A stretch of DNA of 64,000 nt from Hymenobacter sp. HSC-4F20 (GTDB lineage Bacteria; Bacteroidota; Bacteroidia; Cytophagales; Hymenobacteraceae), in the NCBI RefSeq assembly GCF_019599275.1, contig NZ_JAHZTD010000002.1, forward strand, positions 868,001 through 932,000. Direction: 5' to 3'. Under the pieces are notes generated by a model that saw only the letters and a program-made list of their open reading frames with translations, searched no databases and was not told where the DNA came from. The translations under genes were made by a program, and so were the position numbers. This document shows positions 43,061-45,166 of the stretch, in pieces (positions within the stretch are counted from its first letter, which is position 1; every line of letters begins with the position of its first letter).

Positions 43061-43516
43061 ATGGGCAAACCGCAAACCTCTTTTGGAAAGAAGGAAAACG
43101 AAAAAAAGCGCATTAAGAAGCGCAACGACAAGGCTGAGCGCAAGGAAGAGCGCCAGGCCAACTCCCGGAACGGCGGCAACCTGGACGAGATGCTCGCCTA
43201 CGTCGACGAGGATGGCAACATCACCTCTACCCCGCCCGATCCGAACAAGAAAAAGGAAGTAAACCTGGAGGACATCGTGCTGGGTGCCCGCAAGCAGGAA
43301 GCCGAGGATCCCGCCGACGCCATTCACCAGGGCACGGTCTCCTTCTTCAATGGCTCCAAGGGCTACGGCTTTATTAAAGACCAGAAAACCCAGGAAAGCA
43401 TTTTCGTGCACGCCAACGGGCTCATCAACCAAATCAAGGAAAACGATAAGGTGACCTTTGAGGTGGAAATGGGCCAGAAAGGACCGAACGCCGTGCGCGT
43501 CCGCCTGGCCGTATAA
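43061..43516 (+). CDS. Cold-shock domain protein with a long basic N-terminal extension
   Basis: A 151-aa nucleic-acid-binding protein. Residues 1-40 are extremely Lys/Arg/Glu-rich (KKENEKKRIKKRNDKAERK) and coil-forming, followed by an acidic linker. From about residue 88 comes a cold-shock domain with RNP1 KGYGFIKDQ and RNP2-like SIFVHANGL, ending VTFEVEMGQKGPNAVRVRL. Such CSD proteins with a basic head occur in Bacteroidetes and bind RNA or single-stranded DNA. A leader of more than 180 nt precedes it. Confidence 0.88.
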   Translation: MGKPQTSFGKKENEKKRIKKRNDKAERKEERQANSRNGGNLDEMLAYVDEDGNITSTPPDPNKKKEVNLEDIVLGARKQEAEDPADAIHQGTVSFFNGSKGYGFIKDQKTQESIFVHANGLINQIKENDKVTFEVEMGQKGPNAVRVRLAV

Positions 43517-43637: not shown

Positions 43638-44765
43638 TCAAAGCAGCAGCACATCAATCCGGTGGGCGTGCACCATCTGCAGGGTTTCCGACCAGGCGAA
43701 CAACGTAAAAAAGCCATCTTGGGAGGCCACCAAAGCTACGGCATCGTGCTGGTCGTGCACGAACTGAGCAGCGGCCAGGTGGCGGGTGCCGCCGTTCTGG
43801 GCCGGGTGCAGGTAGCGGGCCACGCTATCCACCACGGGCTCAGTGAGCACCATCTGGTCTACGGGCGCGCCGGACTCGGCCCGGGCCACTTTGGCTCCGA
43901 ACGCCAGCAGGTGGTAGTCGCGGGTGATGACGGTGGCCCCGTCTACGGCCGTGAAGCCCCCTACAATTCCGATGCTGCGCTGAATTTCCTCCAGCCACTT
44001 GCGTTTGGAGTGCTCCTGCTGGCCCTGGGCAATGCCCGTGTAGGGCGGCTGGACGGGGTAGGTCATGGGCTGCACAATGGACTCCTGCCAGCGCGTAGAG
44101 CCGGGTGGCACCACCAGCACCAGTCCGCCCCGGCCGTGGGCCCGCATGGCGGCGGCCAGCTCCACCAGCACGTTGTCGATTTCGCCGGTACCGGCGGGCA
44201 GGCCGGGGGTAGGCAGAAACAGGTGCAGGGCCGGGCACCCCTCCACGGCCGCGTTTTCCGCGTCCACGAGCTGCAGCTGGTCGCCGCGCAGGATGGCCAC
44301 GTTCACGAACTTCCCGAACCCATCGGCACGGCGGTGCTTTATTACCAGCAGCCCCGGCTCCACTACCTCCAGCACAAAGCAGAGGGGCGGAATCTCAGTG
44401 GCCGTGCCCCACACATACAGGCCTTCGTCATCAAACCACACGCCCAGGTGAATTCCGGGCTGCTCCACGGCGGGGGCCAGCTTCAGCAGGTTGTAGGGCG
44501 TGAGGCGGCGCGGCCCGAACACTACCGGCTGGCCGGCCTGCTCGGGCTGCAGCAGCGCCAGCGAAATGCGGGGCGGGTGGCCTTCTTCCCGGCGCAGGCT
44601 GGCCCAGAATGCGGCGTCAATGATGGCCTCCACCCACGGGGCGGGCGGCGGGGCCGCGGCGCGGGCTACGTCGGCGGCCAGGGCGGCGGCGCGGTGCCGG
44701 GCAAAGTGCGCTTCAACCATGGGGGCCACCATGCGAGCGGCCAGGTACGTAGGTTCAGAAAGCAT
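43638..44765 (-). CDS. DisA-related DACNV domain protein (putative nucleotide sensor)
   Basis: A 375-aa cytosolic protein. The C-terminal half carries marks of a diadenylate-cyclase-like (DAC) fold: the DGA motif at D275 (GGFTAVDGATVITRDYHLL) and the TRH motif at 326-329 (NGGTRHLAAAQFVHDQHDAV). In c-di-AMP synthases the second motif reads RHR; here it is RHL, and the gap between the two motifs is about 20 residues longer. That pattern fits the DACNV-type domain described for nucleotide-signalling systems rather than a proven cyclase. The N-terminal half (VVFGPRRLTPYNLLKLAPAV; HLGVWFDDEGLYVWGTATE) is the co-occurring sensor part. The ATG at 44765 is used. Confidence 0.72.
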   Translation of the reverse strand: MLSEPTYLAARMVAPMVEAHFARHRAAALAADVARAAAPPPAPWVEAIIDAAFWASLRREEGHPPRISLALLQPEQAGQPVVFGPRRLTPYNLLKLAPAVEQPGIHLGVWFDDEGLYVWGTATEIPPLCFVLEVVEPGLLVIKHRRADGFGKFVNVAILRGDQLQLVDAENAAVEGCPALHLFLPTPGLPAGTGEIDNVLVELAAAMRAHGRGGLVLVVPPGSTRWQESIVQPMTYPVQPPYTGIAQGQQEHSKRKWLEEIQRSIGIVGGFTAVDGATVITRDYHLLAFGAKVARAESGAPVDQMVLTEPVVDSVARYLHPAQNGGTRHLAAAQFVHDQHDAVALVASQDGFFTLFAWSETLQMVHAHRIDVLLL

Positions 44766-45166
44766 GAGCAGTTGGTAGTACAAGACGGAAACTCGGGGCA
44801 ACGTAGGCCCGGCGCCCACCGGCATACCTACCAGTGATAAGCTGGGCTGACATAACCACCGGAGGGGCCAGGGGGTTTGGGGCCGCGGCAGAGAGTACCA
44901 CGGTGCGGTGCCAAAGCTACCTGCCGCTCCCGCAAAGTAGTCGGCTTTCGACTACAGGGCGCGGCCTGCACGGCAGTTTCAAGGAGCCAGCCCGGCCGCA
45001 GCCTCGCTTTCCTGTACTGGCTCCGTATTTCCTACCAGATTGATTCCGTATAAATGCGGAATCAGGCGTGGAAAGCAAGCAGTGCGTTGGCCCTGAGCGG
45101 GTGAGGCTGCGTAAAGGAGGGCGGGCGCAGCGGGCGCCGCAACTTCTCTCCTATCTGACTTTCGTG
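44766..45166. other. Divergent intergenic region
   Basis: About 400 bp between the DACNV gene (minus) and the MRJP-like gene (plus). No gene or strong hairpin was seen; it should hold both promoters. Confidence 0.4.

Follow-up and report, generated by a model that had tools for sequence, protein, structure and literature searches.

A DACNV-DAC protein of Hymenobacter with a clade-wide RHL variant of the diadenylate cyclase RHR motif

Relatives of the DACNV-DAC family make the bacterial messenger c-di-AMP. The architecture of this family, a DACNV domain followed by a diadenylate cyclase (DAC) domain in proteins of Bacteroidota, is already catalogued in Pfam (PF21751), and DACNV-DAC proteins are reportedly covered in the review of DAC families by Galperin (J. 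Bacteriol. 2023, e0002323). Among related systems, DisA consists of an N-terminal DAC, a linker, and a helix-hairpin-helix DNA-binding domain, while CdaA/DacA proteins have a C-terminal DAC domain with DGA and TRH motifs. CBASS-associated DACs (NCBIfam DS2_3_antiphage), with the architecture DACNG-DACNH-DAC, are cytosolic proteins with N-terminal DACN-type domains and a C-terminal DAC. As for the nucleotide pocket, an ATP analogue bound to Staphylococcus aureus DacA is contacted at its ribose by D176 and G177 and at its phosphate by T207, which precedes the RHR motif (PMC6368335). Replacing RHR by AAA abolishes both ATP binding and activity in Mycobacterium tuberculosis DacA (PMC3328451), and the same replacement in Mycobacterium bovis CdaM leads to loss of activity (PMC13022847). 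Both are triple mutants, and mutation of the third Arg by itself is absent from this cited work (PMC3328451, PMC13022847). The defense system DS-2 no longer protected against phage once predicted catalytic residues of its DAC had been mutated (PMC13092281).

The gene studied here lies within a 64,000-nucleotide stretch of the genome of Hymenobacter sp. HSC-4F20 (the window; contig NZ_JAHZTD010000002.1, positions 868,001 to 932,000), on its minus strand (43638..44765), and encodes a standalone, cytosolic DACNV-DAC protein of 375 residues. The open reading frame (ORF) proposed in a first-pass annotation is borne out and its coordinates are correct: it opens with the ATG at position 44765, and its stop codon ends at 43638. 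An alternative start at 44825 appears less likely because conservation among orthologs starts at MLSEP. When compared with six Hymenobacter orthologs, the gene shows dN/dS values of 0.11-0.20 and codon changes mainly at third positions, and therefore is under purifying selection; the closest ortholog found, in Hymenobacter glacieicola, is 86% identical. A chance match or a noncoding ORF was rejected on the basis of dN/dS and conservation. A 391-aa open frame runs antisense over the whole gene (43662-44837, plus strand). Since long antisense frames over the DACNV gene recur in most of 81 orthologous loci, it is probably just a shadow of the gene that arises from codon usage at high G+C.

The DACNV domain, which Pfam describes as a probable sensor domain, matches residues 37-122 (PF21751; 44400..44657, minus strand) with an E-value of 2.4e-30 and 105.1 bits, well above the curated cutoff of 27. 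The match to DAC (PF02457), near the C terminus, is below threshold (16.7 bits for a cutoff of 27; E 0.0056), and 13 of 15 DACNV C-terminal domains match this model at E≤1. Pfam found no domain besides these two, and no effector domain. Searching PDB sequences with the protein or its profile returned no DAC, and a mixed DACNV profile reached DACs weakly, the best of them (E 0.0095) ranking below a designed TIM barrel. An AlphaFold2 model of the whole protein, produced from 45 sequences, has a mean pLDDT of 82 and a pTM of 0.76. When this model was compared with the PDB using Foldseek and VIA-align, DAC proteins were the only ones among the matches listed, with Z-scores of up to 15.9 across residues 173-375. 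The best match is M. tuberculosis DisA (9y4s; Foldseek E ~1e-5, VIA-align Z 15.9), which aligns with residues 175-373 of the model with an RMSD of 2.2 Å over 135 residues and about 13% identity. The C-terminal DAC module spans residues 195-375 (43641..44183, minus strand).

Family membership is thus beyond chance, for DACNV by sequence and for DAC by the predicted fold, and the DAC-like fold that a structure prediction was meant to check is what the model displays. The earlier label of "DisA-like DACNV protein" stands for the DACNV domain and for the DAC-like fold of the catalytic domain, but not for the architecture of DisA, since the DAC is C-terminal and Pfam detects neither a linker nor a DNA-binding region. 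The protein further differs from DisA by RHL in place of RHR and by an insertion between motifs. In contrast to the CdaA of the source genome (L001), it lacks a CdaA_N transmembrane domain and any membrane helices, and in contrast to the DAC of DS-2, it lacks DACNG/DACNH domains and an operon with CD-NTase and effector genes. It is a lone, soluble, two-module member of the DAC superfamily.

We examined the pocket in 120 distinct orthologs, from Hymenobacteraceae, other families of Cytophagales, and Sphingobacteriaceae (Sphingobacteriales). Both motifs noticed at first pass are present: DGA is formed by D275-G276-A277 (43935..43943, minus strand; D and G in 120/120, A in 119/120), and TRH by residues 327-329 (43779-43787, minus strand), as part of GTRH (326-329), with Thr at position 327 in 111 orthologs and Ser in 9. 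D275, G276, and T327 correspond to D176, G177, and T207 of S. aureus DacA. At the place of SEETG in CdaA, the protein has SQDG (348-351; 43713..43724, minus strand), Q349 being found in 109/120. Eleven positions are invariant (D275, G276, F289, G290, G325, G326, R328, H329, S348, D350, and G351). The complete RHR motif, which is a feature of DAC (PF02457), is absent, and the annotated change to RHL is confirmed at residues 328-330, within GGTRHL (325-330; 43776..43793, minus strand). Position 330 is Leu in 116 orthologs, Met in 2, and Phe in 2.

The longer spacing between DGA and RHR also proved correct: from Asp to Arg it is 53 residues, compared with 32-33 in 53 CdaA domains from Bacteroidota (32 when set against CdaA/DacA). 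A value of at least 50 is common to the DACNV proteins measured (50-51 in other DACNV clades). The additional residues (approximately 300-321; 43803..43868, minus strand) are predicted to form a β-hairpin, AlphaFold2 modeling two extra short strands between DGA and TRH. Since RH[LMF] is found in all 120 orthologs, RHL is a fixed property of the clade and, like the long spacing, not an oddity of one gene. Recent decay of a DAC gene was rejected because orthologs from two orders all have RH[LMF] and keep the remaining pocket fixed; on this evidence the RHL form is an ancient and presumably working variant, not a broken gene.

More distant DACNV proteins are found in Hymenobacter genomes and in two Sphingobacteriaceae genomes. 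A tree splits the family into clade A (120 rows), to which the RHL form belongs, clade B (7), and clade C (4), with high support values and long joining branches. The motif reads GGTRHRAAYR in clade B (SGTRHRAAYR in one member) and GTRHRSM in clade C (GTRHCSM once), while DG, FG, GTRH, and SQDG are invariant in a 15-sequence alignment of the three clades. Because canonical DACs and nearly all clade B and C proteins have Arg, the Leu at position 330 was probably derived in clade A. Since the same pocket is combined with RHR in clade B and with RHR or once RHC in clade C, the aligned sequences point to the third Arg as a labile position in a pocket that is otherwise kept. One family thus offers a natural series, RHR, RHC, and RHL/M/F, with nearly all other pocket residues fixed, which would reveal the role of the third Arg and whether c-di-AMP is made or read. 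As far as checked, a clade-wide RHL with RHR-bearing sisters is apparently new, as is the possibility that the DACNV module descends from a DAC (see below). Clade B and C proteins (L154-L163, L171-L173) sometimes share a genome with the RHL form.

The third residue of RHR is replaced in CBASS-associated DACs too (RYN), although their N-terminal domains are different. In the Citrobacter example, a plasmid-borne DAC encoded beside phospholipase and CD-NTase genes reads GSRYNSG and hence misses the third Arg, and the gene order is as in DS-2. Some DACs that are likely functional thus do without the third Arg, and we infer that RHL would be compatible with catalysis. On this conjugative plasmid (NZ_CP029730.1; L175 370-4044), the order is HTH, patatin-like phospholipase, CD-NTase, and DAC, the last annotated merely as a hypothetical protein. 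The source genome encodes, besides its single DACNV protein, one DACNG-DACNH-DAC protein (G000:C9:649943-650254; L002 1474-2925, minus strand; L174 9917-11368, minus strand), with GSRYNSA for GTRHRAA. It is related to the DAC of DS-2, scoring 450 bits with NF053872, below the NCBIfam cutoff of 630, and no CBASS genes were recognized by eye among its neighbors.

The N-terminal module (residues 41-166; 44268..44645, minus strand) is predicted to adopt a DAC-like fold without catalytic motifs. A separate prediction of residues 1-190 used 35 sequences and reached a pTM of 0.81. With this model, an unbiased Foldseek search placed two chains of the DAC CdaM from Mycoplasma pneumoniae first, with a weak E-value of 0.1 and a probability of 0.82. 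VIA-align gave Z-scores of 5.8-7.6 over ~105 residues to 31 DAC entries, which hold ranks 1-31, the next match scoring 2.9; DACs are the only matches above Z 3 among those listed, though a best Z of 7-8 is by itself no proof. The order of elements is alike in both halves of the protein (helix, strand, strand, helix, strand, strand, extra hairpin, strand, strand). At the HDGA place of DACs, the N-terminal half has H106-L-G-V109 (44439..44450, minus strand; H106 in 119/120, G108 in 118/120), so that in the model the place of the catalytic Asp would be hydrophobic (LGV for DGA). The RHR-bearing helix is missing from the modeled N-terminal half, and its place is taken by a loop with the basic residues K143-H-R-R146 (44328..44339, minus strand) followed by GxGK (149-152). 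This loop is clade-specific: K143 and K152 are found in 120/120 orthologs, H144 and R146 in 118/120, while the clade B and C sequences have no such loop. Profile-profile comparison, whether the N-terminal module was set against CdaA DACs or against the C-terminal half, gave no significant match (probability under 1%) and does not support homology, so its likeness to DACs, seen in the predicted structure, is a lead.

A tentative reading of this model, which we consider possible but rather doubtful, takes the DACNV "sensor" for a DAC domain that has degenerated and the protein for a tandem of pseudo-DAC and DAC in one chain. If so, a fold whose chemistry needs two facing domains would have a built-in unequal partner, much as mammalian adenylyl cyclase is built from two unlike halves, and the fixed RHL and the KHRR loop would line a single nucleotide site from either side, one that has been reshaped and may be asymmetric. 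Such a descent would explain where DACN domains come from and suggest a mechanism of regulation that can be tested.

DACNV is present in 27 of the 32 genomes sampled in the genus, 68 of 291 in the order, and 11 of 395 in the phylum sample. Shadows aside, no conserved neighbor or operon partner was found in 81 loci with flanks of up to 10 kb, the sole recurrent neighbor being a cold-shock-domain gene, in 24-25 of the 81. In the window, a gene for a small protein with a cold-shock-like C terminus (GTVSFFNGSKGYGFI) converges on the DACNV gene (43061-43516, plus strand). A DAC scoring over the family cutoff is also present in 48/48 carriers outside Hymenobacter and in 81/81 Hymenobacter genomes tested; in nearly all cases this extra DAC is a full-length, full-scoring CdaA type. 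Because all genomes tested have such a second DAC, the DACNV protein is not needed as a source of c-di-AMP. In the source genome, CdaA adjoins folP, and no c-di-AMP phosphodiesterase of the PgpH type (PF07697) was found.

Our best explanation for these findings, which we hold with about even confidence from pocket conservation and the modeled fold, is that the protein is a cytosolic, regulated member of the DAC family with an intact nucleotide pocket, most likely cyclizing nucleotides. The C-terminal DAC domain would bind ATP in the pocket formed by DG(A), FG, GTRH, and SQDG, and two DAC domains placed face to face would join a pair of nucleotides to form a cyclic dinucleotide, by default c-di-AMP. 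Loss of the third RHR residue would be tolerated, and fixed, in clade A. The N-terminal module (DACNV and the strands that follow), perhaps a degenerate DAC fold, would act as a regulatory partner, either controlling how catalytic domains pair or binding a ligand. The analysis establishes the gene, its family, its predicted fold, and its conservation, whereas nucleotide binding, catalysis, the nature of the product, and this N-terminal role are what we infer. Cyclization is favored because the substrate-contact residues are kept; in a relic that only binds, the Asp should have been the first residue to go. Counting against it are the inactivity of RHR-to-AAA mutants, the presence of a second DAC, and the lack of a conserved partner gene.

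The strongest alternative is a pseudo-cyclase receptor whose noncatalytic DAC pocket would bind either ATP or the c-di-AMP that CdaA makes and would signal this to a partner. A pocket of Asp, Gly, Arg, and His would suit binding without catalysis just as well, and the third Arg is fixed as a hydrophobic residue in all 120 orthologs; in M. tuberculosis DacA the AAA replacement kills ATP binding along with activity (PMC3328451). The clade-specific KHRR..GxGK loop could mark a second anion site. The RHL protein is also always accompanied, in the genomes tested, by a second DAC above the cutoff, but this is weak evidence since CdaA is common in these groups. As the Asp that contacts metal and ribose is invariant, like the rest of the pocket, and both an effector domain and a conserved neighbor are absent, we regard a pure receptor as a serious possibility, but a less likely one than an active cyclase.

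An active cyclase might also yield an altered product, residue 330 and the 21-residue insertion shifting which nucleotides are joined, so that a mixed or linear molecule would be the putative result. The fixed, hydrophobic change at position 330 would fit, as would the place of the hairpin, which follows the DGA strands and precedes the RHR helix, and c-di-AMP is already supplied by a separate CdaA. However, the RHR-bearing sister clades have an insertion of nearly equal length, which makes this version improbable. A part in an anti-phage defense module, like that of CBASS-linked DACs, was rejected as very improbable because, although there is a defense-linked DAC family that also has DACN-type N-terminal domains, the DACNV protein has no PADLOC or NCBIfam match, no plasmid copy of it was found, and its carriage by most genomes of the genus without conserved neighbors is a housekeeping pattern.

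Finally, in the tree (L045-L124), most Mucilaginibacter DACNV-DAC proteins form a group with the Hymenobacter proteins that leaves out the other genera of Hymenobacteraceae. This suggests that DACNV-DAC genes have been transferred between Mucilaginibacter and Hymenobacter.
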